Positions 5,346-33,962 of a DNA stretch of 33,962 bases are shown here, one piece after another (position 1 is the stretch's first letter; each line of letters opens with the position of its first letter). The notes below the pieces were generated by a model. That model saw only the letters and a list, made by a program, of their open reading frames with translations, made no database searches and was not told where the DNA came from. A program made the translations under genes and the position numbers. This DNA comes from a virus, in the IMG/VR virus record IMGVR_UViG_3300047510_002861, positions 1 through 33,962 of that record; one strand, written 5' to 3'.

Positions 5346-5354
5346 AGAATATGC

Positions 5355-5858: not shown

Positions 5859-5867
5859 TATAATAAC

Positions 5868-5894
5868 AGTAGGGGGAATAATCCCCCTACTTTA
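5868..5894 (+). terminator. Hairpin terminator after ibpA
   Basis: AGTAGGGGG (5868-5876) pairs perfectly with CCCCCTACT (5883-5891) around a 6-base loop. Only a short T run follows, so termination may be incomplete and clpS may be partly read through. Confidence 0.6.
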
Positions 5895-5907
5895 AACCTA
5901 CAAGATT

Positions 5908-6219
5908 ATGAGTAAAACAGACATTGTAGTAAAACCTCGAATTCAGGTTAAAACAAATATTAAACCTCCTAGTTTGTTCAATGTCATTTATCTTAATGAC
6001 AATGTAACTACAATGGAATTTGTTGTAGAAACACTCAAAGCAATTTTTCATCATACAGAAGAAACTGCTTACGAAATTACTAAAAAAATTCACGAAGAAG
6101 GTAGCAGTGTAGTTAGTACACTGCCATATGAAATTGCTGAACAAAAAGGTGTAGAAGCTACATTATTAGCTCGTAACAATGGTTTTCCTCTCAACGTTAA
6201 ATTAGAACCAGCCACTTAA
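5908..6219 (+). CDS. clpS: ClpS, adaptor of the ClpAP protease
   Basis: The 103-residue product matches the ClpS family: a flexible N-terminal tail, KPPSLFNVIYLNDNVTTMEFVVETL (core strand and the ND-T-MEFV ligand-binding segment), a helix around HHTEETAYEI, KKIHEEGSSVVSTLPYEIAEQK, and a final strand (PLNVKLEP). ClpS binds proteins with N-degron residues and hands them to ClpA/ClpP, while its tail inhibits other ClpA substrates. Phage copies could redirect host proteolysis; in marine phages they have been proposed to aid host protein turnover. No strong Shine-Dalgarno precedes the ATG. The stop overlaps the next ATG (TAATG). Confidence 0.92.
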   Translation: MSKTDIVVKPRIQVKTNIKPPSLFNVIYLNDNVTTMEFVVETLKAIFHHTEETAYEITKKIHEEGSSVVSTLPYEIAEQKGVEATLLARNNGFPLNVKLEPAT

Positions 6220-8154: not shown

Positions 8155-9891
8155 ATGAAATACCTCAGCAGAGTCGTTGTGACTTTTGCTGTTTTTCTAT
8201 CATCTATTCTTCCAGCTAAAGCAGATATCACTGACGGACATTTTAGTACAAATCAAATTTTTGACGTACAATACTATTGGAGTGGAACCACTCTAAACGC
8301 AAGTAATTTTATTGCACCATTTGACATGAACTTTCAACACCCAACAGTCGGTTCAGGTCAATATTTCGCATTTTTTAACAGTACAACCAATCCGGGTACA
8401 TATGGTTTAGGTTTGTATAATTCAGATGGCACACTAGCACAAGTATTACACGACACAGGTACATTGCAAGCCATTGGTCCTGATGCGTTGTTCTACGTTG
8501 GATCAGGATTTTTTGGTACAGTAATTACAACCAGTGCCGGTTACAATTATGGAGACAATGCAAGTTTCACTAATATGGATACCAGTGTAACATCTGCAGA
8601 TGCTACAGGTTATACTTGGGCAAGTACTACACCACTGGGTGCTGGTCAAACAGCCGGAGGAGGATCACCGACAGTAGTTTCCACTGCTGCTGGAACACCT
8701 GTTGTGTCAACATCTACTAGTAACGGTGCAACCACATCTACCACAGTAGATACATTAGGGTCACCAACTGCGGTTACAACCGTAACTGACAGCAGAGGAT
8801 CTCTCAATGAGAAGGAGCTAACAATCACTAGAAATACAACCGTAGTTACAACAACACCAGTAACCAGGGTAGTGACTGATACAACTCCAGTAACAACAAC
8901 CACTGTAACAACACCAACCACAGTAACAACTTATAGTGATGGTTCTACCACAACTACCAATGGCACACCTGTTACCACTACTTCAACAACTAATCAAGTT
9001 GTTACTACCACTTCAACTTTTAATCAGGTAGTTACAACAAGTGCTGGTCAAGATTACACCACAAGAGTTGATCAATATTCAGTATTAGCCCAAACTAACA
9101 CGTTTGCTAATCTACTTAACTCTAATGATGTACTAAATCGTCACAGCATTGTTGATGGTGAACTTGTGTTTCGTGGAAATGTAGATGCGGGCGGAAGTAT
9201 TAGTTTCTACACCTTGGGTGAACGAGCTGGCGAATATGCCAACGATGGTTACACAATTTCTACTAGTCGTTATGGGTTCGGTTTAGATAAACTGGTCAGA
9301 AACAATTGGGTTGTTGGACTAAATGTCAGTCGTTCAAGTACAAGTATGACAGGAAACGATGCCAGTGGTAATCTTTATAAAGATATGATTGCCGTAAACA
9401 GCACTGCGGTTGTTAAAAATTGGATTTTAAGTTCGCAGTTAGGCTACTCGCGTAATGCTATGGATTCTACACACAGTTTACCTGCACTGGGCTATTCAAA
9501 CAGTTCTAGTACAAACGGTGATGACTACTGGTTTACAGCTAGGTTATATACACCAGATTTCCGCGGACTAAGACCGTTTGTGGGCGGAAGAGTAGAAAAC
9601 AATCGTAGAGATGCTGTTATAGAATCAGGCAGTGCATTGACTGCAATGAGTTATGACGCAGTGAATACCACAACCAATACCACACACTATGGTGTAAGAT
9701 TTGATCGTCAAGTAAATTCGTTTAACTTTTACGCCGAAGCAAGTCAAAATTCAGACAATGTTTTAGTGTCACGTATGGGTGTCGGTAAACAGCTAACAGA
9801 AAAAGTCTCTGTTATCCTAGGTGCTACACACCTTAAAAAAGACAGTATAGAAAGTACAGCAGGTAGTATAATGTTGCGAATAGGCTTTTAA
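8155..9891 (+). CDS. Outer-membrane autotransporter-like protein
   Basis: The 578-residue protein starts with a Sec signal peptide (MKYLSRVVVTFAVF... ending PAKA). Residues about 20-170 form a Gly/aromatic-rich beta domain. Residues about 180-300 are low-complexity Thr/Ser/Val repeats (TTTPVT, TTST and similar), probably a stalk or passenger. From about residue 315 to the end the pattern alternates polar and aromatic/hydrophobic residues and closes with SIMLRIGF, a terminal Phe typical of beta-barrels inserted by Bam. It would be exported and set in the host outer membrane, displaying the repeat region. It stands as a single unit between terminators at 7949 and 9900. Possible roles are superinfection exclusion, aggregation or surface alteration; none is proven. 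Confidence 0.8.
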   Translation: MKYLSRVVVTFAVFLSSILPAKADITDGHFSTNQIFDVQYYWSGTTLNASNFIAPFDMNFQHPTVGSGQYFAFFNSTTNPGTYGLGLYNSDGTLAQVLHDTGTLQAIGPDALFYVGSGFFGTVITTSAGYNYGDNASFTNMDTSVTSADATGYTWASTTPLGAGQTAGGGSPTVVSTAAGTPVVSTSTSNGATTSTTVDTLGSPTAVTTVTDSRGSLNEKELTITRNTTVVTTTPVTRVVTDTTPVTTTTVTTPTTVTTYSDGSTTTTNGTPVTTTSTTNQVVTTTSTFNQVVTTSAGQDYTTRVDQYSVLAQTNTFANLLNSNDVLNRHSIVDGELVFRGNVDAGGSISFYTLGERAGEYANDGYTISTSRYGFGLDKLVRNNWVVGLNVSRSSTSMTGNDASGNLYKDMIAVNSTAVVKNWILSSQLGYSRNAMDSTHSLPALGYSNSSSTNGDDYWFTARLYTPDFRGLRPFVGGRVENNRRDAVIESGSALTAMSYDAVNTTTNTTHYGVRFDRQVNSFNFYAEASQNSDNVLVSRMGVGKQLTEKVSVILGATHLKKDSIESTAGSIMLRIGF

Positions 9892-11247: not shown

Positions 11248-11694
11248 ATGAACAAAATAATTTTTACATTATTAACAATCCTGTCTATTGAAGCAACGGC
11301 GCAAGAATTTCCACTGTCAATCACAGAAAACAATCAAATCATTTACAATGAAGCTGATTGGCAGCAGGCAGCACAATCTAATATATTTCAATTGTCTGTA
11401 CACAAAGTTTCAATAAATGTTCGCCAACAACAAGTTCCTGTATATTCACTTACTGAATTCAACAATCCAGACGGACAAAAATATGAAATGTTAGAACAAC
11501 CTGTTTACAAAATTTATACTTTTGGCTTGTTAGATTGCCAAACTGCTCTGTTTAACATTATGAATCATTGGTTTGTTGACAAAGACAACAAAATTGTTTA
11601 CAATGATGTAAAATCTGTTGGCTCATATATAGTTGATATGAGAGCCAACAATACTCCTCGTAACGATTTATTCCGTCTGGTTTGTAATAAATGA
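11248..11694 (+). CDS. Secreted hypothetical protein, 148 aa
   Basis: A signal peptide (MNKIIFTLLTILSIEATAQ, cleavage after TAQ or ATA) leads a mature protein of about 130 residues. Two cysteines (LLDCQTAL and RLVCNK) could form a disulfide in the periplasm. CGGAG (11236-11240) provides the ribosome binding site. The stop overlaps the D,D-peptidase ATG by 4 bases (ATGA), so the two are probably made together. No known domain is recognised. Confidence 0.7.
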   Translation: MNKIIFTLLTILSIEATAQEFPLSITENNQIIYNEADWQQAAQSNIFQLSVHKVSINVRQQQVPVYSLTEFNNPDGQKYEMLEQPVYKIYTFGLLDCQTALFNIMNHWFVDKDNKIVYNDVKSVGSYIVDMRANNTPRNDLFRLVCNK

Positions 11695-12458
11695 CTATTC
11701 GCTTTCTAATAACAGCAATCATAATGATTGTTAGCAGTTCCGTATTCTCTGCTAACATATCAGCTAAATCGTGGCTTATTGCAGATGGCGAAGGCAATAT
11801 TCTTGAACAAGAAAATATCAATATTCAGCAACCTATTGCCAGTATTACAAAATTAATGACTGCAATGGTGGTATTAGACTCAAACGAAAATTTAAAAACA
11901 ACAGTTGTCAAGAGATTTCGCGGACTGACAGTCACTAGAGAGCAACTACTCAATCTTGCAATAATAAAATCAGACAATCAAGCAGCCAAAATGTTGTGCG
12001 AATTATACCACCGTGGATATAAACAGTGCATTGAAGATATGAATCACAAGGCGCAAATTTTAGGAATGCGTGATACAAGATTTGAAGATAGCAGTGGGCT
12101 AGACAATCGTAATGTAAGTACACCGCAAGATTTAATAAAACTTTTATTAGCAGCGGAAAAATATCCTGCCATTGTGTATGCCAGTAACCAAAGCGTTGGG
12201 GAACTGCTAAAACCCAAAAAGAAAAAAATTCTTAAATGGCGCTATACAAATACCAATCCGCTAGTGGCCAAATATAATGTAATTGTGAGCAAAACTGGAT
12301 ATGTACGTGCCAGCGGTGGTTGTTTGATCATGAGTATAATTATCAAGAAACAAAAAAAACTTTTTGTTGTTTTGAATAGTTCTACAACCAGAACAAGAAT
12401 CCATGACATGGAACAATTGATATTGACTACCATTCAAGAAGAACACAATCAAAAGTAA
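11691..12458 (+). CDS. S11 family D-Ala-D-Ala peptidase (PBP7-like)
   Basis: The 255-residue protein has a signal peptide (MTIRFLITAIIMIVSSSVFS) and all three penicillin-binding signatures: SxxK (S51-K54, SITK), SxN (S94-N96, SDN) and KTG (K201-G203). Spacing and size fit the PbpG/DacA-type periplasmic endo- or carboxypeptidases, without the C-terminal DacA stalk. The substrate is the peptidoglycan peptide stem. It lies behind a membrane mini-protein and a secreted partner. It could soften the host wall at lysis, reshape peptidoglycan, or block a competing phage. Cytoplasmic endolysin motifs are absent. Confidence 0.9.
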   Translation: MTIRFLITAIIMIVSSSVFSANISAKSWLIADGEGNILEQENINIQQPIASITKLMTAMVVLDSNENLKTTVVKRFRGLTVTREQLLNLAIIKSDNQAAKMLCELYHRGYKQCIEDMNHKAQILGMRDTRFEDSSGLDNRNVSTPQDLIKLLLAAEKYPAIVYASNQSVGELLKPKKKKILKWRYTNTNPLVAKYNVIVSKTGYVRASGGCLIMSIIIKKQKKLFVVLNSSTTRTRIHDMEQLILTTIQEEHNQK

Positions 12459-19083: not shown

Positions 19084-19430
19084 CCACTAATGCATATCTT
19101 GTTTACTGGTGTTCGGAAGGACTAGAGAGTGTGATTCCCATTACCCAATACGAACATTGGGACGCGGAAAATACTTTCAGGATCCTTAACAATGAGGAGA
19201 CTGTTCGTAATCCAATGAACGGTGTTCTGCAGGGTATGCTGCTAAGGGCCAGAGTAAATAGTCAGCGTCATTATGAATTGTATGCCGTTGATTGCGACAC
19301 CAGCATAACCAAAGAGGACCTAGAGCAGATGTTTGATAACAATCCGCAAACAGCAGCTGATTTAATTAGGTCCCGCGGTCATAAAATATACTGTAATCGC
19401 GCATATAAAAATCACGTAAAAATTACATGA
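19080..19430 (+). CDS. Hypothetical array protein, 116 aa
   Basis: Coupled to the previous gene by ATGA and to the next by ATGA. It is a soluble protein with YLVYWCSEGLESVIPITQYE near the start and no FxLRW ending, so it may be a different family inserted in the array. Weak resemblance to small marine-phage proteins; no function assigned. Confidence 0.65.
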   Translation: MTTNAYLVYWCSEGLESVIPITQYEHWDAENTFRILNNEETVRNPMNGVLQGMLLRARVNSQRHYELYAVDCDTSITKEDLEQMFDNNPQTAADLIRSRGHKIYCNRAYKNHVKIT

Positions 19431-19744
19431 ACTTAGAAGAGGTCGTGCTTGCACAAGCAGCGAAAGAAATGCAAGCGGCAATAGATCTAGAAGTTTTTAG
19501 ATCATTTTTTGATAACAGATCCATGAAAATAGTTTGGGAAAGAGATACAGAAAAATCACTTGTTCTATACGCAAGAATCTCATATGACCACGGACCTGTT
19601 ACTCTAACGGGACTAAGAGAACACGATCTTGAACCCGTACAGGAATGGTGTATGCACAATAGATGTGGTCGTAGAACCAGTTTTCATCAGTTTCGATTTC
19701 GTAATGAACAAGAAGTCACAATGTTTTTGTTAAAGTGGGGTTGA
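19427..19744 (+). CDS. FxLRW-family array protein, 105 aa
   Basis: The N-terminal half is helical (MNLEEVVLAQAAKEMQAAID), followed by KIVWERDTEKSLVLYARIS. It ends HQFRFRNEQEVTMFLLKWG, i.e. a strand, an acidic turn and a helix with the FLLKW box. One base separates its TGA from the next ATG (TGATATG). The GTGGGG codons of KWG precede the next start. Confidence 0.65.
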   Translation: MNLEEVVLAQAAKEMQAAIDLEVFRSFFDNRSMKIVWERDTEKSLVLYARISYDHGPVTLTGLREHDLEPVQEWCMHNRCGRRTSFHQFRFRNEQEVTMFLLKWG

Positions 19745-19745
19745 T

Positions 19746-19997
19746 ATGCAATTCTCTTTTAGGTATGCGCCCAAATGGTTTCACGATCATATTTTAAACT
19801 ATTATACTGATGAATTACACGCTATTCAAAAAGCAGCTAAAACCATTCCTGACTACGATGATCAACAATTTAAACAAATTGCTGTAGATTTTTTTACCAG
19901 TAAAGGTTTCACAGTGTGGTTAGACGAAAGTAATCACATATGGTTTGAGATAGATCCCGATAGTGCCGAATGGACTTTTGAAATATTAAGGAACTGA
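19746..19997 (+). CDS. Array protein, 83 aa, diverged ending
   Basis: Helices dominate the first half (LNYYTDELHAIQKAAKTIPDY and QQFKQIAVDFFTSKG), then FTVWLDESNHIWFEID and a final WTFEILRN that keeps the position but not the sequence of the FxLRW box. AAGGAA near the end serves the next gene, whose ATG follows after one base. Confidence 0.6.
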   Translation: MQFSFRYAPKWFHDHILNYYTDELHAIQKAAKTIPDYDDQQFKQIAVDFFTSKGFTVWLDESNHIWFEIDPDSAEWTFEILRN

Positions 19998-19998
19998 T

Positions 19999-20190
19999 AT
20001 GGAAATCATTACAGTTTGGGTATTATCTATTCAGTTATGGTCCGACCCGCCACCGGCAATCAAATTGATCTATACAAAAGAATTTGCAACACGAGAAGAG
20101 TGTATGCAAGCTAGAGAGCAATGGATCAAAACTCCTTATCAATCATTATGTTTAACTAAAACCAAAAATGGCAACACTGTGGGAAAATGA
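19999..20190 (+). CDS. Hypothetical array protein, 63 aa
   Basis: Starts after AAGGAA with a TGATATG junction. The product has a hydrophobic first strand or helix (IITVWVLSIQLW) and a Cys pair (REECMQAREQW and SLCLTK). It resembles short phage proteins with a CxxAxxxW helix. No FxLRW box. The last 23 bases overlap the next gene. Confidence 0.55.
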   Translation: MEIITVWVLSIQLWSDPPPAIKLIYTKEFATREECMQAREQWIKTPYQSLCLTKTKNGNTVGK

Positions 20191-20407
20191 TAAAGATAGA
20201 TTTATAGCCACTGGGCCGTTTGATGACGAAATGCCCCATTACTATATTATTATCAGTGACTTTCGTTGGTGGGCTGCTAACGAACCCGAAATATATCGCT
20301 GGATGGATCAATGCTTGCCGCGAGGCAGAGAACATCAGCAGGGCATGGTGGTGGTAATTGAAAATGAATCTGATGCCAGTAACTTTTTATTACGGTGGAA
20401 TGGATAA
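20168..20407 (+). CDS. FxLRW-family array protein, 79 aa
   Basis: Begins inside the previous gene (ATG 20168). It contains MPHYYIIISDFRWWAANEPEI and ends GMVVVIENESDASNFLLRWNG, the strand, acidic turn, helix and LRW box shared by the array. A TAATG junction couples it to the following gene, and the CGGTGG codons of RW lie upstream of that start. Confidence 0.65.
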   Translation: MATLWENDKDRFIATGPFDDEMPHYYIIISDFRWWAANEPEIYRWMDQCLPRGREHQQGMVVVIENESDASNFLLRWNG

Positions 20408-20805
20408 TGGATCACAACTTTGAACAAGACATGAAAGATGCTGCTTGGTTTGTAGCAAAAGTACGAGATAGTGATGCATACTCACAAAACCTTTATGCCG
20501 CACTATGCAACAATGCTTTCCAAAAAATGGAGGTTGTACCTATACTTAAAGATGCTATATGGTCCTGCACCTGGCGTTATGCCGGCGGGGTAGTTGCTGA
20601 TATTCGTTGCCAAGGCGATTACATGGATTGGTATTGTTCAGGTATCCGCGGTGATCCTGACGAAATTGATTATGCTGCGGCCGAAGCTCAAGGATTCGAA
20701 CTTAGAAAATATGTGCCCGAAAGTATTATTACTAATGAAATTAGACAGGATTTTCGAAAGTTAGGTTGGACGGTAGTAGAGGATTACTATGACGATGGTA
20801 TATAA
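20407..20805 (+). CDS. Hypothetical array protein, 132 aa
   Basis: Starts at the ATG overlapping the upstream stop (TAATG); the GTG at 20395 is less likely. It begins MDHNFEQDMKDAAWFVAKVR and has a Cys/Trp-rich centre (WSCTWRYAGGVV... YMDWYCSG). Its C-terminal half (NEIRQDFRKLGWTVVEDYYD) is a helix-strand. No LRW box. A TAATG junction follows. Confidence 0.62.
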   Translation: MDHNFEQDMKDAAWFVAKVRDSDAYSQNLYAALCNNAFQKMEVVPILKDAIWSCTWRYAGGVVADIRCQGDYMDWYCSGIRGDPDEIDYAAAEAQGFELRKYVPESIITNEIRQDFRKLGWTVVEDYYDDGI

Positions 20806-21002
20806 TGCAAGCATACAACAAACGTTATTGGCCGCACCAGTTTAGAATGTTGCCCGAACCAGACGCTTGGGAACAGGTTTGTCGCCTTGAAGCATTTTGC
20901 TACGAGCATTATCGAAGTGGCAATTGGCGCAACAATGGGTTGTACTTTGTATTCAAACGAGAACAGGATGCTACACACTTTTTACTACGGTGGGGTGGAT
21001 AA
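20805..21002 (+). CDS. FxLRW-family array protein, 65 aa
   Basis: Among the clearest members: a helix EQVCRLEAFCYEHYRSG, then LYFVFKREQDATHFLLRWGG at the C terminus (beta strand, acidic turn, helix ending in LRW). The stop overlaps the next ATG (TAATG), and the codons for RWGG form CGGTGGGGTGGA just before it. Confidence 0.68.
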   Translation: MQAYNKRYWPHQFRMLPEPDAWEQVCRLEAFCYEHYRSGNWRNNGLYFVFKREQDATHFLLRWGG

Positions 21003-21205
21003 TGACTTTTTACAAAGTAGTATACGCCAAATACAATGATATAGAAAGCGGGAAACTTCGCAGTTATAAGGATTGGTTAGTTGATCAATGGTTAGAAGAG
21101 CATTGTCAAGCACCTTATTATCACGACCCCGGCTGGACCAAGGAAAAGTTTATTCAATTTGAAAATAGCGAAGATGCTGTAAATTTTGCATTGAGGTGGT
21201 CGTGA
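21002..21205 (+). CDS. FxLRW-family array protein, 67 aa
   Basis: Start chosen at the TAATG overlap; an in-frame start at 20897 lies inside the previous gene. The 67 residues show strand (FYKVVYAKY), helix (YKDWLVDQWLEEHC), strand (KFIQFEN) and helix (SEDAVNFALRWS), a beta-alpha-beta-alpha layout. GAGGTGG in the final codons precedes the next GTG, with a GTGA overlap. Confidence 0.68.
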   Translation: MTFYKVVYAKYNDIESGKLRSYKDWLVDQWLEEHCQAPYYHDPGWTKEKFIQFENSEDAVNFALRWS

Positions 21206-21384
21206 ATAAATTTTTTATTGACTATAGATACAACCACATTGGTTTCACCGAGGTATCAACTTGGCGACAAATCGTTGAGATAGAAGCGTGGTGTGATGCT
21301 ATGGGCAATTATAAAGTTTTAGGCACCGGCATTGTGTACGAGACTGAACAGGATTTATCGGCATTTTTGTTGAGGTGGGCGTGA
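21202..21384 (+). CDS. FxLRW-family array protein, 60 aa
   Basis: The GTG at 21202 overlaps the upstream stop (GTGA) and sits after GAGGTGG; a second GTG at 21196 is possible. The product shows strand (KFFIDYRY), helix (WRQIVEIEAWCDAMG), strand (GTGIVYET), helix (EQDLSAFLLRWA). It is the most compact member and may define the minimal domain. Confidence 0.65.
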   Translation: MNKFFIDYRYNHIGFTEVSTWRQIVEIEAWCDAMGNYKVLGTGIVYETEQDLSAFLLRWA

Positions 21385-21626
21385 ACAGTAGACAACGCAG
21401 ACAAGATCGCAGAGAATGGCGATATAGTATAAACTTAGGTTCTAGACCCTATGATGACTATGCGGCTATGTTTGCCTGGCTCAGCGAACGACATGGTAGA
21501 AAGATAGCTAGATGTGGTTGGCGTAGTAATATAGAACCAAATAACAATACCGACGATGAGTATTTTTTGGTGTGGCAATTCACACGTGATCAGGATGCAG
21601 CGGAATTTGCACTAAGATGGGCATAA
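21381..21626 (+). CDS. FxLRW-family array protein, 81 aa
   Basis: GTG start overlaps the upstream stop (GTGA), after GAGGTGG (21372-21378). The N terminus is very basic (RQRRQDRREWRY), possibly contacting nucleic acid, then a helix (YDDYAAMFAWLSERHG), and the ending FLVWQFTRDQDAAEFALRWA. A TAATG junction leads to the next member. Confidence 0.66.
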   Translation: MNSRQRRQDRREWRYSINLGSRPYDDYAAMFAWLSERHGRKIARCGWRSNIEPNNNTDDEYFLVWQFTRDQDAAEFALRWA

Positions 21627-21886
21627 TGAACAAAGTTACAGTACCTTTCAAAACAATGCGAGATAAAAAGGCGGAGATAGAATCTTGGCTGACAGCAAAT
21701 GCCGGCCGTGGCAGTGCCAGATACGGCGGTCGAGAAGGTTCAATCAGTCATTGGCTCAACGGAGACGATTGGTGTTATTATAATCAATGGACTGTGGGCG
21801 ATGTGGAGGACTTAGAAACTACCAGTACTACTTTTGTATTTCGCGATGAAAAAGCCGCAACAGAATTCGCATTGAGGTTTGCATGA
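21626..21886 (+). CDS. FxLRW-family array protein (LRF variant), 86 aa
   Basis: Starts at the TAATG overlap. The helix DKKAEIESWLTANAG follows a short strand; a Gly/Trp-rich insertion comes next; the end is TTFVFRDEKAATEFALRFA, with Phe replacing the Trp of the box. The codons TTGAGGTTT keep GAGGT ahead of the next ATG (ATGA overlap). Confidence 0.66.
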   Translation: MNKVTVPFKTMRDKKAEIESWLTANAGRGSARYGGREGSISHWLNGDDWCYYNQWTVGDVEDLETTSTTFVFRDEKAATEFALRFA

Positions 21887-22230
21887 AACATCTTAAACGG
21901 CGAATTCTTATTAGACAATATGATTTTCATCGAATTCAAAGTCGTGCTCAACAGGTGTATGATAGTGTGAGCTTTGAACCCGTTACATTAAAAGAAATCA
22001 AGCACGAACATTTGTTTCGAGTTTTAAATGGGGCGAAACTACCTGAACCAATGTACGGTGAGTATCACTATCCAAGAAATTACTTGTATGCCATGCAGAA
22101 TTATCTGTATGATAAGAACTATGTAGATTGGTTTAGCAAATACGACGAGGATGGATACATGTATATACAGAGCAAGCGAAACGCACCCGAATCAATGCTA
22201 GGATGGGCAACTTTTGAATATGATTACTGA
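21883..22230 (+). CDS. Hypothetical array protein, 115 aa
   Basis: Coupled by ATGA and preceded by GAGGT. Basic N terminus (MKHLKRRILIRQYDFHR), Tyr-rich middle (YHYPRNYLYAMQNYLYDKNY) and an acidic end (GWATFEYDY). No LRW box and no recognised family. It overlaps the next gene by 11 bases. Confidence 0.62.
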   Translation: MKHLKRRILIRQYDFHRIQSRAQQVYDSVSFEPVTLKEIKHEHLFRVLNGAKLPEPMYGEYHYPRNYLYAMQNYLYDKNYVDWFSKYDEDGYMYIQSKRNAPESMLGWATFEYDY

Positions 22231-22570
22231 AAAATTACGAAAATGGCGCGATCGAATCTATTGGCGACTTGTAGACTATGTCGAAATAGATGTTAAGTGG
22301 CCATCAGGTGAAATAGTGGTAGATCATAATGATCCACGCTGGGCAGACTTGGGAGGCGCTGTTTGGATAGGATTCGAATCCGCAGATCCAAACGACCACT
22401 ATCGCCCATTTCTTGAACAATGGATTGGACGCCAAGGTTGGGATTGGGATTGGCATTTGGCTTGGCACGGACGCAATATCGAAACCGGCGAACAAAACGG
22501 ACGATTAACAATTCGGATGCATCGTAAACACGCCATTTATGCTAGTCATATCGCTCTGATGTGGAATTGA
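22220..22570 (+). CDS. FxLRW-related array protein, 116 aa
   Basis: The ATG at 22220 is preferred to the TTG at 22214. The product has strand VEIDVKWPSG, a helix with FLEQWIGRQG, and ends LTIRMHRKHAIYASHIALMW. The layout and the HIALMW ending match the 83-residue protein at 2032-2283 (FRLPSG ... HFALTW). It closes the array, and its TGA stop forms part of the next -35 box. Confidence 0.66.
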   Translation: MITEKLRKWRDRIYWRLVDYVEIDVKWPSGEIVVDHNDPRWADLGGAVWIGFESADPNDHYRPFLEQWIGRQGWDWDWHLAWHGRNIETGEQNGRLTIRMHRKHAIYASHIALMWN

Positions 22571-26513: not shown

Positions 26514-26538
26514 AAAGCCCTGCTTGACAGGGCTTTTT
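26514..26538 (+). terminator. Intrinsic terminator overlapping the next promoter
   Basis: AAAGCCCTG (26514-26522) pairs with CAGGGCTTT (26528-26536) around CTTGA, followed by T residues. The loop and the base of the 3' arm also spell TTGACA, the -35 box of the following promoter. Confidence 0.8.
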
Positions 26539-26552
26539 CTTTATGTTATTAT
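26524..26552 (+). promoter_or_regulatory. Sigma70-type promoter inside terminator loop
   Basis: TTGACA (26524-26529) and TATTAT (26547-26552) are 17 bases apart. The start would be near 26559, leaving a 27-base leader with AGAGGA before the GTG at 26586. Confidence 0.65.
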
Positions 26553-26585: not shown

Positions 26586-26870
26586 GTGAACAATTTGTTA
26601 TTAAATTGCCGCCCACACACAGTTTTTGACGCAACTATCAAAGAACATCGCAAGGCATACTTCAATTTTCTTAAATATTCTACCTGGGGGCGCAGTCCTT
26701 ATCAGTTCATACTTGAACCTGGTTTTGAGGACATTCCCACTCTTTGCCGCCATCGTCTTTGCGAGTATTATGTTAGCAAAGAATTCACACCAGTGCGGCC
26801 TACCTTAAAATCTAACAATCATAACGGAAATAAATTGACTGTGGTCAAATTGTCTCCGAAAAGTGATTGA
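26586..26870 (+). CDS. Hypothetical protein, 94 aa
   Basis: AGAGGA (26573-26578) supports the GTG start at 26586; the TTG upstream at 26559 is in frame but lies at the transcription start, and an out-of-frame ATG at 26579 gives only 16 residues. The product has KEHRKAYFNFLKYSTWGRSP and CRHRLCEYYVSKE; it is basic at the C terminus. No family recognised. Its TGA stop is part of the next -35 box. Confidence 0.55.
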   Translation: MNNLLLNCRPHTVFDATIKEHRKAYFNFLKYSTWGRSPYQFILEPGFEDIPTLCRHRLCEYYVSKEFTPVRPTLKSNNHNGNKLTVVKLSPKSD

Positions 26871-26896
26871 CCAAAAATCGCAATTTTGCTTATAAT
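26867..26896 (+). promoter_or_regulatory. Sigma70-type promoter
   Basis: TTGACC (26867-26872, including the upstream TGA stop) and TATAAT (26891-26896) are 18 bases apart. The leader of about 20 bases carries GAGAGG before the ATG at 26925. Confidence 0.65.
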
Positions 26897-26924: not shown

Positions 26925-27293
26925 ATGGGTTTAGATATGTATGCTTACGCCGCCGCCAAAGCCAATGAAGAGTGGGGCACTGGATCACAACGAGAAATTG
27001 CCTATTGGCGCAAACATCCTAACCTACACGGGTGGATGGAACAACTTTGGCGCAGTCGAAACACAGACCCTAGTGCAGACCCAATGTTCAACGGCATTGA
27101 ACTAGAACTGTTTTGGGAAGATCTAGAACATTTGGAGGAGGACATTAAAAATGGCAGGCTCCCATCTACTTCTGGTTTTTTCTTTGGTGATAATAGCGAT
27201 GATTATTATCGGTCTCAAGATCTAGAATTCATTCAAAAAGCCAGAGCAGAGATTTTCACCGGACTCAAAGTTTTTTACAACTCATCTTGGTAA
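26925..27293 (+). CDS. MGLDMYAYA-family hypothetical protein, 122 aa
   Basis: GAGAGG supports the ATG at 26925 rather than the upstream in-frame codon at 26886, which falls inside the promoter. The product opens MGLDMYAYA and has IAYWRKHPNLHGWMEQLW, the signature of a conserved bacterial and phage family of unknown function. An acidic helix (WEDLEHLEEDIKNGRLP) and an aromatic segment follow. It leads a run of small genes that continues into the lipoprotein block. Confidence 0.72.
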   Translation: MGLDMYAYAAAKANEEWGTGSQREIAYWRKHPNLHGWMEQLWRSRNTDPSADPMFNGIELELFWEDLEHLEEDIKNGRLPSTSGFFFGDNSDDYYRSQDLEFIQKARAEIFTGLKVFYNSSW

Positions 27294-27303
27294 GAGGACA
27301 CAT

Positions 27304-27459
27304 ATGACCAAAGCACAACGATTTGCTGACGAAGCTGTTTACATTCTACAACTGAATACTCGTGATGCAGTTAAGTACATTCAACGCAATGCCGGTTGCG
27401 ATGAAATGTCGGCTATGACCGCATTTAAATCCACGATCGTAACTAAAAAGCAAAAATGA
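27304..27459 (+). CDS. Small hypothetical protein, 51 aa
   Basis: AGAGGA precedes the ATG at 27304. The product is a helical basic protein (QRFADEAVYILQLNTRDAV then YIQRNAGCDEMSAMTAF). It ends with an ATGA overlap to the first lipoprotein gene. Confidence 0.5.
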   Translation: MTKAQRFADEAVYILQLNTRDAVKYIQRNAGCDEMSAMTAFKSTIVTKKQK

Positions 27460-27668
27460 AACAGTTAGTTATTGTTTGCTTTTTGTTTTTAACGGCTTGC
27501 TCCACCAGACACGTGAGTAATAACACGTTCTGGTATGCGGACTGTTATATTAAAAAAGAACAAGAAGCAATGATAGCGCAGTCGGAAGCCTTGTTGTCCC
27601 CCAACGACTTTGAAAAGCGCCGTACTCTGCGAAGAGCCTACTGGAATCTTCAGAAAGAATGTAAATGA
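27456..27668 (+). CDS. Lipoprotein, 70 aa
   Basis: The N terminus is a lipoprotein signal (MKQLVIVCFLFLTACS) with the acylated Cys at 15. Ser at the +2 position predicts outer-membrane sorting. The mature part has two further cysteines (YADCYIKK and KECK) and a charged helix. Coupled by ATGA on both sides. A small lipoprotein of this kind could be a spanin subunit or an envelope-modifying factor, but no partner is identified. Confidence 0.72.
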   Translation: MKQLVIVCFLFLTACSTRHVSNNTFWYADCYIKKEQEAMIAQSEALLSPNDFEKRRTLRRAYWNLQKECK

Positions 27669-28048
27669 AGAAAATGGTTTTGTGTGTTGTATGCAGTTTT
27701 TTAATGGCTTGTAGCACTCCTGCTAGAATGAGTGTCGGGGGTCTTGAAAATTTCAAGTACAACTGCGATAAAAGACACGAACAATACCATTTTCTCGAAA
27801 ATCAAAAGTACAGCTATAATGAACGATTCATGGTTGGAATGCAAATGAATAGCACCGTGGGTGTGTTATCTAATTTATTTCACGGCACTTATCAAGACAG
27901 CAAAGATACCATAGAATCCAAACACGAACGATTGATAGAACATCATCAAAGAAAATTGAAAGAACAGTGCAGGTACGAAGATTCAGTCCGAGCTGACAAC
28001 GAAAGAATGGAAAAATGGGCCAGACAAAGAGAAAATGGATCACGATAA
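27665..28048 (+). CDS. Lipoprotein, 127 aa
   Basis: Lipobox FLMACS with the acylated Cys at 16 and Ser at +2. The mature protein is strongly helical and charged (KRHEQYHFLENQKYSYNERF, then KHERLIEHHQRKLKEQCRYED), suggesting a long periplasmic coiled coil. Two later cysteines may pair. The start overlaps the upstream gene by ATGA, and the 3' end overlaps the next gene by 34 bases. Confidence 0.72.
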   Translation: MKKMVLCVVCSFLMACSTPARMSVGGLENFKYNCDKRHEQYHFLENQKYSYNERFMVGMQMNSTVGVLSNLFHGTYQDSKDTIESKHERLIEHHQRKLKEQCRYEDSVRADNERMEKWARQRENGSR

Positions 28049-28587
28049 TCCTTTTGCTTCCAATTACAGCAGCAGCTGAATGCTTTACAGAATCCGTGAT
28101 TGCCAGTCGTGCCGGCGCCGAAATTCGCGAAGTTGCTGAGTACGAAAAATCTGTTAGCACACTCGGTAACAAGCAAACCTGCATAGTGAGATTCAAAGCC
28201 AAAATTGGTAATAAATGGCACGAAGCAAGGGCAGAAAGTCAAGGGCTCATAACTGACAGCACAGACCAAGTTTGCTCTCAGGCCATGCAAACGGGTCGCA
28301 TCAGAATTTTAGAAAAAGTTGAAGGATTTGCATTACATTCTACCCAAACTCAATGGTGTAATGATTTCAAAATCCCACAGATTCGTAAAGGACTTAACAA
28401 AAACGATACCTTTAAAATCAGTGAACTAAAACCGCATCCGGCCGAACCAAACCCGTTTGAACATAAAGGTACACAGTGTAGATATTTTTTAGAATCGGAT
28501 ATTGATTCTCGAACCAATGATCTTAAACAATGGGAGATTATAGGATGTTTTATTAGAAATGAGTGGACAGTGGTTGACAAATTTTAA
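28015..28587 (+). CDS. Secreted Cys-rich protein, 190 aa
   Basis: The signal peptide is MGQTKRKWITIILLLPITAA, probably cleaved before ECF. The mature protein has six or more cysteines (CF, TCIV, QVCSQ, WCND, QCRY, GCFI), fitting a disulfide-bonded periplasmic fold. Beta-rich segments include TCIVRFKAKIGNKWHEA. No enzyme motif is seen. It starts inside the preceding lipoprotein gene. The next gene's promoter-like element overlaps its end. Confidence 0.7.
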   Translation: MGQTKRKWITIILLLPITAAAECFTESVIASRAGAEIREVAEYEKSVSTLGNKQTCIVRFKAKIGNKWHEARAESQGLITDSTDQVCSQAMQTGRIRILEKVEGFALHSTQTQWCNDFKIPQIRKGLNKNDTFKISELKPHPAEPNPFEHKGTQCRYFLESDIDSRTNDLKQWEIIGCFIRNEWTVVDKF

Positions 28588-28602
28588 CAAATAGGATATT
28601 AT
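28574..28602 (+). promoter_or_regulatory. Promoter-like element overlapping the 28603 start
   Basis: TTGACA (28574-28579) and TATTAT (28597-28602) are exactly 17 bases apart, but the ATG of the next gene abuts the -10 box, so transcripts from here would begin inside that gene. It could serve only the gene at 28740, or be chance. The 28603 gene itself has AGGAT as ribosome binding site on read-through mRNA. Confidence 0.35.
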
Positions 28603-28731
28603 ATGAACAAGAAAACAATTTTTGTGTGTTTGACTGTGTTTTACCTAGCTGGGTGTGGCACAGTGGGTGGTGCGATTTCAGGTGCTGGTCGAGACCTAAG
28701 TCGCGCCGGTGATTGGATTCAATCTAAATGA
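28603..28731 (+). CDS. Entericidin-like lipoprotein, 42 aa
   Basis: The 42-residue product MNKKTIFVCLTVFYLAGCGT has a lipobox (LAGC, Cys 18) with Gly at +2. The mature part (TVGGAISGAGRDLSRAGDWI) follows the entericidin EcnA/EcnB pattern: Cys, then T-V, a G-x-G-x-D turn and an amphipathic AGxxI helix. Entericidins are small outer-membrane lipoproteins; EcnB is described as bacteriolytic and EcnA as its antidote. It lies in a block of phage lipoproteins. Either a lysis aid or an immunity-like factor would fit. Confidence 0.72.
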   Translation: MNKKTIFVCLTVFYLAGCGTVGGAISGAGRDLSRAGDWIQSK

Positions 28732-28739
28732 GGTTAACA

Positions 28740-29330
28740 ATGAATAAGTTTGTTATTTTTATGGTTCCTGTTCTTGCTGCACTTACAGCCTGTAGTTCTG
28801 TACCCAACAACAACTACGATAAAAGAGCAGAAAAAGAAAGAGAACTAGATATTGCTTCTAATAAAATTATCAGAGCAAAAATGCCAGACTGGTATCAGTC
28901 CTTGCCCAAAGTAAACAATGCGGTATTGTCTCAAGGTATTGGTATCAGTGTAGATCCGCAAGGATCTGTGGACAAAGCCAAACTAGATGCATACAAAAGC
29001 ATTTGTATGGCCGCCAATGGTAAAGTTGATATGGACAAAAGAAATTTCACGTCCGAGGTGGAAAAACAGTCCATTGAGAGATTTGAAGTAGCTGTACGTG
29101 CCATGTGCGAAAAAACAGCCGTGCGTGGAGTCGAATTGGCCCAGATAGACGGAGTAAAATCTCTACAAAGTTACGATTTGCCCAATGGTAGCTGGGTGTC
29201 TTTTGTGCTTATAGCTTTGCCAACTGGTCCAGCTAACGTGATACAAACTGAACATAATAGACAAGAGTTGTCAAAAGATGCATCTAAACGGGCAGACAAA
29301 ATGTTTGACAACATGGACAAAAAACAATAA
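28740..29330 (+). CDS. LPP20-like lipoprotein, 196 aa
   Basis: The ATG at 28740 gives the lipoprotein signal MNKFVIFMVPVLAALTACSS (Cys 18, Ser +2); an earlier ATG at 28728 is in frame but weakens the signal. The mature protein contains MPDWYQSLPKVNNAVLSQGI, DKAKLDAYKSICMAANGKVD and an aromatic C-terminal strand, resembling the LPP20 family of surface lipoproteins. A Lys/Asp-rich tail closes it. It ends just before a strong terminator, so it is the last gene of the envelope block. Confidence 0.7.
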   Translation: MNKFVIFMVPVLAALTACSSVPNNNYDKRAEKERELDIASNKIIRAKMPDWYQSLPKVNNAVLSQGIGISVDPQGSVDKAKLDAYKSICMAANGKVDMDKRNFTSEVEKQSIERFEVAVRAMCEKTAVRGVELAQIDGVKSLQSYDLPNGSWVSFVLIALPTGPANVIQTEHNRQELSKDASKRADKMFDNMDKKQ

Positions 29331-29341
29331 TTGTTCCATTT

Positions 29342-29368
29342 AAAAAAGCCCCGCAAGGGGCTTTTTTT
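29342..29368 (+). terminator. Intrinsic terminator with GCAA tetraloop
   Basis: AAAAAGCCCC pairs with GGGGCTTTTT around GCAA (29353-29356), followed by T residues. Same hairpin as at 9900-9924. It separates the lipoprotein block from the capsid-signal block. Confidence 0.88.
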
Positions 29369-29414: not shown

Positions 29415-30065
29415 ATGCGCTTACGTGAACTAGAACAAAGATCCCTTGGCCGTCCAGAAATATTCCTAGACATGGACGGAGTACTAGCAGATTTCTTTTC
29501 GGAATATGCAAAACTAGCCGGTGTACCGCCCAACACACAGGGCAGATACGATTATCATGCCATCCCGCCTGAAAAGCGAGAACCTATAATACAGCAAATG
29601 GTGGGCACAGACTTCTTTTACAGACTGCCCAAATTTGCATCGGCAGATAGATTGGTAGCAATGGCTGTACAAGTATTTGGATATTATAACATTTGCTCTA
29701 GTCCGCTGCGTGGAGATCACAAGAACTCAGAAGCAATGAAACGTGCTTGGATTGCAGAAAATCTAGATCCGCAGCCCACAAAGATTATTATTACTCAGCG
29801 TAAAGGCAAATATGCCAAGCAGCAGGATGGCACGCCAAATATCTTAGTTGATGATCGTAATACTGTAATCTCCGAATGGGAACAATCTGGCGGCATTGGT
29901 ATCAAGTATCAAGCAGATGAAAATGGCCTAGATACAGTGGCCCGTGGATTACGTCAGGCTTTTGAAATCCTTAAAGGACAGCGTGAGCACGAGCCTCGAA
30001 ACATACAGAGCCAGGACTATGGTCGGATGATTGCCGGCCCACAGGACAAACAAGATGCGAGCTAG
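29415..30065 (+). CDS. HAD-superfamily 5'-nucleotidase-like phosphatase
   Basis: The 216-residue protein carries DMDGVLADF at 19-27, the nucleophile motif of HAD phosphatases of the 5'(3')-deoxyribonucleotidase type; later come CSSPLRGD (motif with Ser) and ILVDDRNTVI (acidic motif). It would remove phosphate from nucleotides or a similar ester. The N terminus is MRLRELEQ, the first of five consecutive genes with a related M-[RK]-x-x-[ED] start. That start resembles the T4 capsid-targeting sequence, although here it is shorter and lacks a clear cleavage site. The stop lies 11 bases inside the next gene. Confidence 0.82.
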   Translation: MRLRELEQRSLGRPEIFLDMDGVLADFFSEYAKLAGVPPNTQGRYDYHAIPPEKREPIIQQMVGTDFFYRLPKFASADRLVAMAVQVFGYYNICSSPLRGDHKNSEAMKRAWIAENLDPQPTKIIITQRKGKYAKQQDGTPNILVDDRNTVISEWEQSGGIGIKYQADENGLDTVARGLRQAFEILKGQREHEPRNIQSQDYGRMIAGPQDKQDAS

Positions 30066-30732
30066 AGAATTTATACGCGAAGTAAAATTGGGACCTGGAG
30101 GTACTGTAGATACACAACAGTATGGATCTTCTACAGTGGATCAGCGAGGTCCCGGGTTGTCCTTGACAAGAGATGAACGAGGTCGTCCCGTTGAACCTGA
30201 ACCAGGGCTAGAGGCTCCTTTGATTGATCCTACTGATATTGTTGGTCTAGGACCTAAGCTAGTCTCAAAAGGTATAGCCAAACTAGCACAAGGCGGCGCA
30301 AAACTAATGCAAAAAGCTCAACCTTATGCACTTGGTTTAGATATTACTCGACCCGCAGTAAAAAATCAATTGTATGATGTTCCTTATGGTGGAGCTAGTT
30401 TTAAACCAGGTTCAACACAAATGGGTTACAATATGCGAGGCGTATCCAGCCCGAAAGAAATCGAAGACATGATACGCACTGGCTATGTGAATCCACGAGC
30501 AGGTTTAAAGCCCAGTGATCCAGGATACGAAACCAAATATTGGGTACATACTGACAAGCCACAACACATGCCGCACCACGGACAAGCAGCCACTATACGA
30601 GTACCATCGAGCAAAACTCCAGTGGGAAGAGCCGTTAGTTCCAAGGATGTTGAAACATTTAATCAAGCAACAGGTACTTGGGATCCTTTAATGGGCGCAG
30701 CAGTTAATAAAGGAAGAAAGACGGGCAAATGA
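30055..30732 (+). CDS. Candidate injected ART-toxin-like protein
   Basis: The ATG at 30055 gives the N terminus MRAREFIREVKLG, which resembles the T4 capsid-targeting sequence MKTYQEFIAEA; I-R-E is a possible prohead-protease site. An earlier start at 30031 would place the signal internally. Residues about 60-90 (LIDPTDIVGLGPKLVSKGIA) resemble linkers of polymorphic toxins. The C-terminal region (MRGVSSPKEIEDMIRTGYV, then YWVHTDKP and AATIRVPSSK) resembles ADP-ribosyltransferase toxin folds with a leading Arg-Gly strand. This assignment is tentative. T4 Alt, an ART injected from the head, is the functional model. No membrane segment or export signal is present. Confidence 0.55.
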   Translation: MRAREFIREVKLGPGGTVDTQQYGSSTVDQRGPGLSLTRDERGRPVEPEPGLEAPLIDPTDIVGLGPKLVSKGIAKLAQGGAKLMQKAQPYALGLDITRPAVKNQLYDVPYGGASFKPGSTQMGYNMRGVSSPKEIEDMIRTGYVNPRAGLKPSDPGYETKYWVHTDKPQHMPHHGQAATIRVPSSKTPVGRAVSSKDVETFNQATGTWDPLMGAAVNKGRKTGK

Positions 30733-31484
30733 GAGCAAGTGATTTTTTAACGGAATTTTTAGACACCAATGGTGATGGCGGTAAAGAAGATCCTGACTCT
30801 TTTCCACTAACTGAATTTGCTGATATTATAGAACAATACTTAGGTCGTGGATATACAAGACAGGATAGAGAAAAACCTGAACAAGTTAGTGTGAAGTTTG
30901 AACCAAAAGACAAATCTCGCAACGGTGCAATACTTTACAGTGTAGTTGGCAAGCGAGGTGAATACCCTACTGTTAACGTTCATTTGCTTGACTATGAACA
31001 AGGATTTGGTAGAGGACGCAAAGCCGGTGTTGCAATACCAAAAACTAGAGACAATGCACTTAAACTTGCGGAATTAATTTTTAATGCACAATTAAACGAA
31101 TTTTTAAACAAATTAACAGAAAGTACCTTTAGCGATCATGAAGAGCAATTACGCGACTTTGTTGCTTGGTGTGTAAAAAAATTAAAGATCAAACAAGCAC
31201 TGCCCGAGATACGTTTTCAAGATGCCAAAGAAGGCCCAGACCAACATCACACTGGTTATTATAGCGACACCGATGATGTCATGTGGATCTACACAGGCAA
31301 CAGAAACATGATTGATATTATGCGTACAGTGGCACACGAATTGACACATCGCAAACAACACGAAGACGGTCGGGTCAATGGCAATCAAGCATATCCGGGA
31401 TCACCAATTGAACAAGAGGCCGATGCGGTTGCTGGATACTTAATGAAATTATATGGTAAAAAAAATCCGGAGATAATAGAATGA
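30729..31484 (+). CDS. Zincin-type metallopeptidase with capsid-signal-like start
   Basis: The N terminus MRASDFLTEFLD resembles the capsid-targeting motif. Residues about 9-120 form an extra domain that includes the calcium-loop-like LDTNGDGG. The catalytic zincin motif is HELTH at 203-207 (AHELTHRKQHEDG), with E230 in IEQEADAVAGY as the probable third zinc ligand. It may cleave a host protein after injection, or process head proteins. Coupled by ATGA to both neighbours. Similar zincins occur in T4-like marine phages. Confidence 0.78.
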   Translation: MRASDFLTEFLDTNGDGGKEDPDSFPLTEFADIIEQYLGRGYTRQDREKPEQVSVKFEPKDKSRNGAILYSVVGKRGEYPTVNVHLLDYEQGFGRGRKAGVAIPKTRDNALKLAELIFNAQLNEFLNKLTESTFSDHEEQLRDFVAWCVKKLKIKQALPEIRFQDAKEGPDQHHTGYYSDTDDVMWIYTGNRNMIDIMRTVAHELTHRKQHEDGRVNGNQAYPGSPIEQEADAVAGYLMKLYGKKNPEIIE

Positions 31485-31954
31485 AAGCAAGAGAATTTAT
31501 AAAAGAAGCAGATGCACTACAGATTCAACAAGGACCCGACATCAGTCCCGAACTTCGTCGATACAAAGAACGAGGAACACTAGATACATTTGGTAGCGAC
31601 AGAGAATTTGGTGTACAGGATATTGTGGGCGGCGGCGCATCCAGAATAGCAAAAACAACACCTACTACACCTGGCACTGATCCTGGGTTTCAGCGGTCTA
31701 TGGGAAAAATTACTAAAGAATTCGACCCTGTGCATCATCAGAGATTGTACCGAGAATATGAAAAAAATCCTCAGTACTTTATCCCCCCACCCAAATCAGG
31801 AGAGGATACCTATCACCATGCAAATAGTATGGCACAATTTGTAATGAACAGATTTCCCAACGCCGATATTGGTACTCTTAAAAATATTGTTACAGGGTTG
31901 TCGACAATTTCTGCAAAACAAGCATTGCGAGCAAAGCAAAATCGAGATCAGTAA
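31481..31954 (+). CDS. Capsid-signal-like protein of unknown function, 157 aa
   Basis: The best match to the T4 targeting sequence in the window: MKAREFIKEADALQ, where I-K-E followed by A fits the gp21 protease consensus ([IL]-x-E before A/S/G). The rest is polar (RRYKERGTLDTFGSDREFG) with a helical C terminus. No enzyme motif is recognised, so it may be an internal head protein like T4 IP proteins. Confidence 0.65.
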   Translation: MKAREFIKEADALQIQQGPDISPELRRYKERGTLDTFGSDREFGVQDIVGGGASRIAKTTPTTPGTDPGFQRSMGKITKEFDPVHHQRLYREYEKNPQYFIPPPKSGEDTYHHANSMAQFVMNRFPNADIGTLKNIVTGLSTISAKQALRAKQNRDQ

Positions 31955-31969
31955 AGGTTTAGTAATAGA

Positions 31970-33962
31970 ATGAGATACCGTGAATTTGAACTAACCGAAG
32001 ACGAGTTATTTGAACTCAAAATGAGTCCCAGCAATTTGGCTAGAATGGCCAAAAGCATTGATGCCAGAGCTGGCCTAGAGTTTGAACTTATAGTGCCGGG
32101 TGTACAAGATGAAGAGGAAGAATTTGAGTCAGAACCCGACTACGATGCCGATGAAAGATTTCCTATTGGGCCGGGATGGCGTAGAGATGTTGTTGAATTC
32201 TTCCGCGGCGGCGAAATGGGAAACAGTACCAGTTATATTGAAAGACGCATTGCAGAGCTAGATGAAAATTTTTACGGTTGGTTTGATGACGAAATAGAAA
32301 ACTATATTGGTGGAGATGCTGGACAGGAACGAGCATTGGAAATCGCTACAGACAATGTTAGCGAAGATGATTACGATACCACAGAGGAATACCAATCTGC
32401 TCTACTTGCCTATATTGAACACAATGAAGATAAAATTAGAACAGAAATAGAAGAAGAATTACGGGATGATGCTGACAGTTTTTGGGAGCGTTATCTAGAC
32501 GAAGAAGGCATAAACTCCATGGCCGACTTTGCCAACGAATACGATCTAGAGTGGCCGTACTGGACTCAACAAGAATATTATGGCGGTGGTGGGGCCAGCA
32601 TTGATGCCGTTGCCCAAGATTTCTCAGATGCGATTGGTCGTTCAGTGAATGCTGCATCTGGTTACCACAGTGGTCGCAGAGAGCCCGGCAAGTATGTGGT
32701 AGAGCCTGATTCTAGCTTGCACGGTGACAACGGTGAATCAGGATTGGAGTTTGTTAGCCCGCCCCTGACTATTCCTGAAATGATAGAGGACATAGATAAA
32801 GTGGCCAAGTGGGCCGGTCGTGCGGGTGCTTATACAAATGAAAGCACCGGATTGCATATGAATGTGAGTGTACCCGGTCAAGCGAATCTAGACTATGTAA
32901 AATTGGCCATGTTCTTGGGCGACAATTACATATTGGAACAATTTGGTCGTGAAGGTAATACATACTGCAAATCGGCCTTGAATAAAATCAAACAAACAGC
33001 ACGAGCCAATCCTGACCGTGTGGATGAAATGCTCAGGCAGTTCCAGGGTGGTCTCAATCAATTGGCCAGCAAACTGATACACACTGGATCAACTGAAAAA
33101 TACACCAGTATCAATGTGCAAAGCAATAGAGTGGAGTTTCGTAGTCCCGGTGGTGATTGGCTTGGAGAGTATGCCAGCGACCCTGGTAAAATTACTAATA
33201 CCTTATTACGTACAGTGGTAGCATTGGATGTAGCCACCAAGCCTGAAGAATACAAACAAGAATACTACAAGAAGTTGTATAAAACACTGAGTCAAGGTCA
33301 AGAAGATAGCAGTATTGAATACTTTGCCAAATATGCTGCCGGCGAATTGCCCAAAGCAGCATTGAAGAGTTTTATCAGACAGATACAAACCAAGCGCCAG
33401 GTTGGCAAAGAAAAACCTGATCAGACCCCAAGCAGAGATCAAGAGTTCACCGGTACTTGGGAAGTTGTTAGCCGACCCACTGACGAAGTTGTGCATACTA
33501 TAAGTGGTATTGGTAATGTTGTTGCTGACGCCGAAAGACATGCTCAGATATGGGCAATCACAACAGGATTTGATGATCCTATCTATGTTCGCCCACAGAT
33601 GCGACCAAGAGATTCTGACAGCTCTAATAGACCAGGTCCAGCAATTTATTCTATCATTGATAATCGTGATGGTGAAGTTTTACTCCCTGGGCAGCAAGGT
33701 ACATGGGTTTATATTCAAACTATAGCAGATAATATAAGGAATAGACGCGGAATTCCTCGCGAAGATATTCGTATCATTGATATGGAACAAAATCGTGCAT
33801 ACTTACTCAGTGGGCAACCTGCTCATCCAAGTAGTCGGCCTACAGCAGGCGGCGAGCAAAGTTCTGACGCTAATTACGAAATTGTAGATTATAGTACTGC
33901 AGAAGCAGTTCCGGTGTTTAGATTTATCGCTAACACTGATCAAGATGCACAAAGAAAGTTTC
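31970..33962 (+). CDS. Amidoligase-like (COOH-NH2 ligase) protein, 3' end outside window
   Basis: Open for 664 codons to the window edge. It begins MRYREFELTEDELFELK, again capsid-signal-like. Residues 34-42 (AGLEFELIV) resemble the first glutamate-rich motif of the amidoligase family; a long acidic insertion follows. The core motifs come later: E245 region, SGLEFVSPPL at 257-266, and STGLHMNVSVPG at 292-303, matching the E-x-x-SPPL and GLHxxV pattern of ATP-dependent amide-bond-forming enzymes. RVEFRSPGGDWL follows. The C-terminal third (about 490 onward) seems to be a separate, repeated alpha/beta domain (TWEVVSRPTDEVVHTISG; NYEIVDYSTAEAVPVFRF). If packaged, it could ligate amines to host proteins. 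Confidence 0.72.
   Translation, partial: MRYREFELTEDELFELKMSPSNLARMAKSIDARAGLEFELIVPGVQDEEEEFESEPDYDADERFPIGPGWRRDVVEFFRGGEMGNSTSYIERRIAELDENFYGWFDDEIENYIGGDAGQERALEIATDNVSEDDYDTTEEYQSALLAYIEHNEDKIRTEIEEELRDDADSFWERYLDEEGINSMADFANEYDLEWPYWTQQEYYGGGGASIDAVAQDFSDAIGRSVNAASGYHSGRREPGKYVVEPDSSLHGDNGESGLEFVSPPLTIPEMIEDIDKVAKWAGRAGAYTNESTGLHMNVSVPGQANLDYVKLAMFLGDNYILEQFGREGNTYCKSALNKIKQTARANPDRVDEMLRQFQGGLNQLASKLIHTGSTEKYTSINVQSNRVEFRSPGGDWLGEYASDPGKITNTLLRTVVALDVATKPEEYKQEYYKKLYKTLSQGQEDSSIEYFAKYAAGELPKAALKSFIRQIQTKRQVGKEKPDQTPSRDQEFTGTWEVVSRPTDEVVHTISGIGNVVADAERHAQIWAITTGFDDPIYVRPQMRPRDSDSSNRPGPAIYSIIDNRDGEVLLPGQQGTWVYIQTIADNIRNRRGIPREDIRIIDMEQNRAYLLSGQPAHPSSRPTAGGEQSSDANYEIVDYSTAEAVPVFRFIANTDQDAQRKF

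Follow-up and report, generated by a model that had tools for sequence, protein, structure and literature searches.

Five consecutive genes for exported proteins, four of them lipoproteins, form an island that is a genuine operon, shared by many giant freshwater phages and partly by marine ones, and the most likely role for it, one that we put forward tentatively, is that it reshapes the host envelope during infection as an outer-membrane lipoprotein module. Most of the outer-membrane lipoproteins known from phages are encoded singly (Rz1, Cor and Llp). The stretch of DNA that was analysed, here called the window, is the whole of the 33,962-base freshwater IMG/VR virus fragment IMGVR_UViG_3300047510_002861, in which 58 genes were called. 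A first-pass annotation of the letters alone had picked out five exported proteins in a row, four with lipoboxes and with residues other than Asp at position +2, and that description is borne out: the reading frames are there and the +2 residues are Ser, Ser, Gly and Ser. The operon and its signals are as follows.

26514..26536, plus strand: terminator hairpin (AAAGCCCTG-CTTGA-CAGGGCTTT), which contains the -35 box of P1, with the same layout in six sister contigs
26524..26552, plus strand: P1, a sigma70-type promoter (TTGACA-17-TATTAT, extended -10 TG), 11/12 matches
26867..26896, plus strand: P2, a sigma70-type promoter (TTGACC-18-TATAAT), 11/12 matches
26925..27293, plus strand: left-flank gene of the PHROG 7971 family (E 1.2e-7), the first gene after P2 and part of the conserved left flank
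27304..27459, plus strand: 51-aa cytoplasmic protein, in the conserved left flank of the island
27456..27668, plus strand: lip1, 70-aa lipoprotein, lipobox LTAC with Ser at +2, two further conserved Cys
27665..28048, plus strand: lip2, 127-aa lipoprotein, lipobox LMAC with Ser at +2
28015..28587, plus strand: exp3, 190-aa secreted protein with six invariant Cys, homologue of the Melnitz gp74 family
28603..28731, plus strand: ent4, 42-aa entericidin-like lipoprotein, lipobox LAGC with Gly at +2
28740..29330 (alternative start 28728), plus strand: lpp5, 196-aa LPP20-like lipoprotein, lipobox LTAC with Ser at +2, homologue of Melnitz gp76
29342..29368, plus strand: terminator hairpin closing the operon (AAAAAAGCCCC-GCAA-GGGGCTTTTTT), read from the sequence

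Exactly four of the 58 called genes have lipoboxes, and all four lie within the run 27456-29330; were four of the 58 drawn at random, the chance that all would land in a single run of five is, by a rough hand estimate, p about 5e-4, and conservation is stronger proof of the island than that figure. exp3 has a signal peptide (ITAAA-EC) without a lipobox. Sorting of lip1, lip2, ent4 and lpp5 to the outer membrane is predicted by a single criterion, the E. coli +2 rule. To judge by its motif lip2 looks paralogous to lip1, and its NCBIfam matches (to toxin-subunit and other models) were discarded, reaching 17.1 bits against a cut-off of 201 and confined to residues 1-37. A search of PHROGs yielded no informative family for any of the five island proteins, and a fold search with the well-predicted model of exp3 (pLDDT 84) no match above background.

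By what means would these genes be expressed? The operon in the window is bounded by a hairpin on either side and served by two sigma70-type promoters, of which P1 is conserved in all six sisters examined (L050-L052, L054, L056 and L057) and P2, also at 11/12, in L051, L052 and L057, the three sisters whose read stretch reaches it. The sisters also have hairpins at the place equivalent to the closing one, which a simple terminator scan had missed in the window because its T run pairs into the stem. As the conserved promoters are of the sigma70 type, host polymerase could express the operon without late factors, and as the endolysin-type hydrolase gene of the sisters has a sigma70-like promoter too, promoter class does not separate early from late. 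A separate curiosity of the region is that at 26514-26552 the -35 box of a promoter forms part of the terminator hairpin upstream, taking in both loop and stem. Another site resembling a sigma70 promoter, at 28574-28602 and immediately before the start codon of ent4, was set aside as probably due to chance.

Sister contigs were found by a scan with the neighbouring nucleotidase (29415-30065). Seven of them (L051-L057) have the same island genes in the same order with the same flanks. An eighth, L050, has lip1 and exp3 at their usual positions too, though tblastn missed them and it took reading and a profile to see them, and in L091 the island genes are present, displaced. Single-sequence IMG/VR scans with lpp5 and exp3 gave no matches, and it took profiles to reach freshwater contigs of 100-357 kb in which the order lip1-(lip2)-exp3-(ent4)-lpp5 recurs. 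Most relatives have lip1; ent4 was not seen between exp3 and lpp5 in one group (L100-L129 and L167-L172, L122 excepted). Across eight-member alignments the lipobox Cys of each lipoprotein and the six Cys of exp3 are invariant. When L050-L056 are compared with the window the adjacent nucleotidase is 81-93% identical and lpp5 only 27-37%, a far quicker divergence in the island than in the flanking gene, as would be expected for a host-interaction module. The initial view of this region as a phage-borne outer-membrane lipoprotein island was right, and its conservation in relatives reinforces it.

The marine counterpart is seen in the cultured methylophage Melnitz (MZ577098), to whose gp76 lpp5 is 24% identical, with an hhalign probability of 99.9 in profile comparison and one of 94.8 for exp3 and gp74. 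Melnitz-like marine phages have the order gp74 (secreted), gp75 (45 aa, one TM), gp76 and a cell-wall hydrolase, that is, the homologues of exp3 and lpp5 occur in the same order around one small gene. Homologues of gp76 (LPP20) are also present in the SAR11 (Pelagibacter) phages Mosig and HTVC008M. Annotation of Melnitz gp74-gp77 is hypothetical throughout except for the hydrolase, and the Melnitz paper treats a CsgGF pore and a lysin, the word lipoprotein being absent from its main text (PMC9004378). Among the papers searched for phage entericidin or LPP20 lipoproteins, none was found to describe such a module.

Several other genes of these genomes merit record. An autotransporter beta-barrel protein is encoded at 8155-9891 of the window and a secreted Peptidase_S11 (PBP7-like, with SxxK, SxN and KTG motifs) at 11691-12458, the latter recurring in 6 of 15 large relatives. 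At 3462-6219 a DnaK gene stands in a row with genes for a small heat-shock protein and one like ClpS, and relatives have ClpP-like genes. The small ORFs running from 19427 to 22570 have in common a C-terminal motif like F-L/A-L-R-W-A/G and are apparently paralogues, with similar runs in L216-L218, and several successive proteins of 29415-32020 start with a similar tag, M-R/K-x-R-E-F/L-x-x-E. A 215-kb freshwater contig (G006, at L231:5967-8863) has CsgF/CsgG-like and curlin-like proteins, as in Melnitz, and a sister phage contig (G021, at L222:2667-3227) has an OmpA/Pal-like lipoprotein.

Is the island a means of lysis? The first-pass annotation had suggested a lysis module in place of spanins, an idea that was favoured at first, with Hydrolase_2 and a 3-TM gene beside the module, and was abandoned on account of spanin genes in the same genomes. 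A search for spanin and endolysin genes elsewhere finds them in relatives: an o-spanin (PHROG Rz-like spanin, E 4e-8) is present in 10 of 29 contigs, among them 8 of the 9 longer than 145 kb, always 47-86 kb from the island, and in 7 of the 8 cassettes read, as well as in G006, a TM/coiled-coil i-spanin-like gene adjoins it or is near. An endolysin gene is beside the o-spanin in most of the cassettes read; in L249 the stretch read around the o-spanin has no i-spanin-like gene. In G006, at a distance of 77 kb from ent4-lpp5, an endolysin gene of the GH19 type is accompanied by a coiled-coil i-spanin-like gene with an o-spanin lipoprotein gene overlapping it, and G008 has an island of the same five genes plus a spanin cassette elsewhere. 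The nearest sister contigs, fragments of up to 108 kb, are without an o-spanin, and the window is itself a short fragment, so that it is in the relatives that the suggestion is contradicted. Reading of the five island proteins revealed no TM/coiled-coil i-spanin partner and no C-terminal TM. Given the spanin cassettes in the same genomes, the island is therefore additional to spanins in those phages, and replacement of spanins by it is unlikely. A Pfam Rz (PF03245) search of the relatives drew a blank, which is misleading since that model misses these spanins, and Phage_lysozyme, SLT and GH108 searches in 15 relatives gave no matches, the GH108 control being silent as well, so that the nil for GH108 says little.

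The early comparison of ent4 to entericidins stands in part. The window protein reaches 19.2 bits (E 0.0012) against Pfam PF08085 (entericidin), below the cut-off of 23.3; its homologues support the likeness, with matches to the model in 6 of 8 family members and a best E of 3.8e-5. ent4 also has an entericidin's signal peptide with lipobox and short mature chain. E. coli ecnA-ecnB is a tandem toxin/antidote pair, and the island in the window has one copy only. In the large relatives there is one match per contig in 11 of 15 and none in the other 4. Close relatives of ent4 come from freshwater Oxalobacteraceae and marine alphaproteobacteria, and the bacterial ent4-like proteins that were found have chromosomal genes around them. 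One Oxalobacteraceae operon (L175:1272-3120) encodes LpoB, then a caspase-domain protein and then an ent4-like small lipoprotein.

The main rival to envelope remodelling is that the lipoproteins, with ent4 behaving as an entericidin would, weaken the outer membrane together with Hydrolase_2 and its 3-TM (holin-like) partner, beside the spanins; we hold such accessory lysis to be unlikely. Hydrolase_2 belongs to the PHROG 938 endolysin family (E about 1e-23). In nearly all marine loci its gene comes next downstream after that for LPP20, with the two overlapping or abutting, and it also adjoins the module in two freshwater arrangements, h2-3TM-ent4-lpp5 (L148, L156, L157 and L158) and h2 upstream of lip1-exp3-lpp5 (L107, L110, L113 and L172), so that the module may have an accessory role at the peptidoglycan or outer membrane. 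Hydrolase_2 and the module are at most 3 kb apart in 5 of 24 freshwater contigs, where 1.6 would be expected (the p of 0.016 assumes an independence that fails), and Hydrolase_2 adjoins the 3-TM gene in all 23 contigs that hold both, the 3-TM protein sharing about 40% identity with one that Melnitz encodes two genes away from its GH108 lysin. However, an endolysin/spanin cassette stands apart in most large relatives, some 28-37 kb separate the hydrolase from the island in the window's own sisters, ent4 was not seen at its place between exp3 and lpp5 in several lineages, and the chromosomal setting of the bacterial ent4-like proteins also argues against a lytic function.

The likeness of lpp5 to LPP20 likewise draws support from its relatives, the window protein itself being below the Pfam cut-off (PF02169, 18.5 bits, E 0.0027, cut-off 25.9). 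There are PF02169 matches in 4 of 8 family members (best E 0.00089), and a profile of four lpp5 homologues, searched against solved structures, matched Helicobacter pylori Lpp20 (5ok8, E 0.0033) and the LPP20-family protein 4kzs (E 0.011); a profile from the window's own lpp5 group alone gave no match to either. For the AlphaFold model of lpp5 (pLDDT 73) the best aligned chain is again 5ok8, at Z 7.2 over 91 residues, which with Z below 8 is near background, as are the lower matches, FlgT (3w1e, Z 6.5) and dodecins; Foldseek ranks 4kzs first, at E 0.04. A bacterial LPP20 relative sought by peptide pattern was not found. To go by the model and profiles, lpp5 likely has an SHS2/LPP20-type domain, the fold of FlgP, FlgT and Lpp20. 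The SHS2 fold groups Lpp20, FlgT, dodecin and FlgP, and ring formation is linked to residues inserted after the SHS2 helix and before the second strand (PMC12222027). At that position lpp5 has about 40 residues (92-131), poorly modelled with pLDDT below 50 at 103-109, and as it thus has extra residues where ring-forming FlgP and FlgT carry their insert, lpp5 may oligomerise.

A further rival is a ring or pore built by the phage, with lpp5 forming FlgP/FlgT-like rings and the hydrolase opening the wall, comparable to the CsgG pore proposed for Melnitz. The fold, the extra residues, the linked wall hydrolase and the presence of CsgG in the same phages all point that way; against them, the insert is the poorly modelled part, no barrel is predicted and function is not deducible from a shared fold, and we rate the proposal as improbable. 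A bolder form of it, that jumbo and marine T4-like phages build a FlgP/FlgT-like lipoprotein ring under the outer membrane while a wall hydrolase clears peptidoglycan, so giving infected cells an envelope structure of their own, is a long shot.

Under envelope remodelling, the island would form the downstream end of an operon with which the phage equips the infected cell with a set of outer-membrane lipoproteins. Export and lipid anchoring of lip1, lip2, ent4 and lpp5 would fall to the Sec, Lgt/Lsp and Lol pathways of the host, which would leave them on the periplasmic face of the outer membrane; exp3 would be a disulfide-bonded partner in the periplasm, and lpp5 may oligomerise under the membrane. 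The purpose might be, say, to shut out competing phages or to preserve the outer membrane through a long infection, with exclusion, which the first-pass annotation had also put forward, perhaps the leading specific form. Counting for an envelope role are the retained gene order, the invariant lipobox Cys, the conserved sigma70-type promoters, the fast divergence, the spanins elsewhere in relatives, the fold matches of lpp5 and the further outer-membrane genes, namely the autotransporter barrel of the window and the CsgF/CsgG-like and OmpA/Pal-like proteins of G006 and G021; counting against it are the cell-wall hydrolase beside the LPP20 gene in other lineages, a promoter class that leaves early and late undivided, and the lack of a match to a known exclusion protein beyond the signal region. 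A simpler alternative, in which each small lipoprotein excludes superinfecting phages by itself in the manner of Cor or Llp and the operon is a mere collection, would suit small Cys-containing lipoproteins that diverge fast. However, the genes keep their order and company across long distances, which speaks for a single functional unit, and there is no Cor/Llp match beyond the N-terminal signal region (lip1 against the Cor PHROG, E 0.15, residues 1-35 only; lpp profile A1 against Llp, E 0.32, residues 1-29), so that this, too, has a low probability.

Remodelling or not, giant phages of fresh water repeatedly carry lipoprotein genes as a unit of several, part of which is also found in phages infecting OM43 and SAR11, both abundant bacteria, and as Melnitz is culturable, the homologous genes can be followed there. 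If the module is a device for exclusion or for sealing the envelope, it would show phage management of the host surface; if it aids lysis, it would be an extra outer-membrane step beside spanins.

How does the island compare with known systems? Like the Rz/Rz1 pairs and u-spanins it encodes phage outer-membrane lipoproteins; unlike them it is without a coiled-coil inner-membrane partner or a C-terminal TM, and its relatives have spanins elsewhere. With Cor and Llp it shares small exported phage lipoproteins, though here in a multi-gene operon and with a match limited to the signal region. ent4 has the size, lipobox and G-x-G-x-D...AG..I motif of EcnA/EcnB (PF08085), but is below the Pfam cut-off and is a single gene within a phage operon. 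lpp5 has in common with the LPP20/SHS2 lipoproteins (H. pylori Lpp20, FlgP and FlgT) a likely fold, the lipid anchor of Lpp20 and a weak profile match, though it falls short of the Pfam cut-off and is without flagellar context. As for Melnitz gp74-gp75-gp76-gp77, its middle gene encodes a 45-aa TM protein where the island has entericidin-like ent4, a cell-wall hydrolase gene closes its module and lip1 and lip2 were not seen there, but in both systems a small protein is encoded between the homologues exp3/gp74 and lpp5/gp76.
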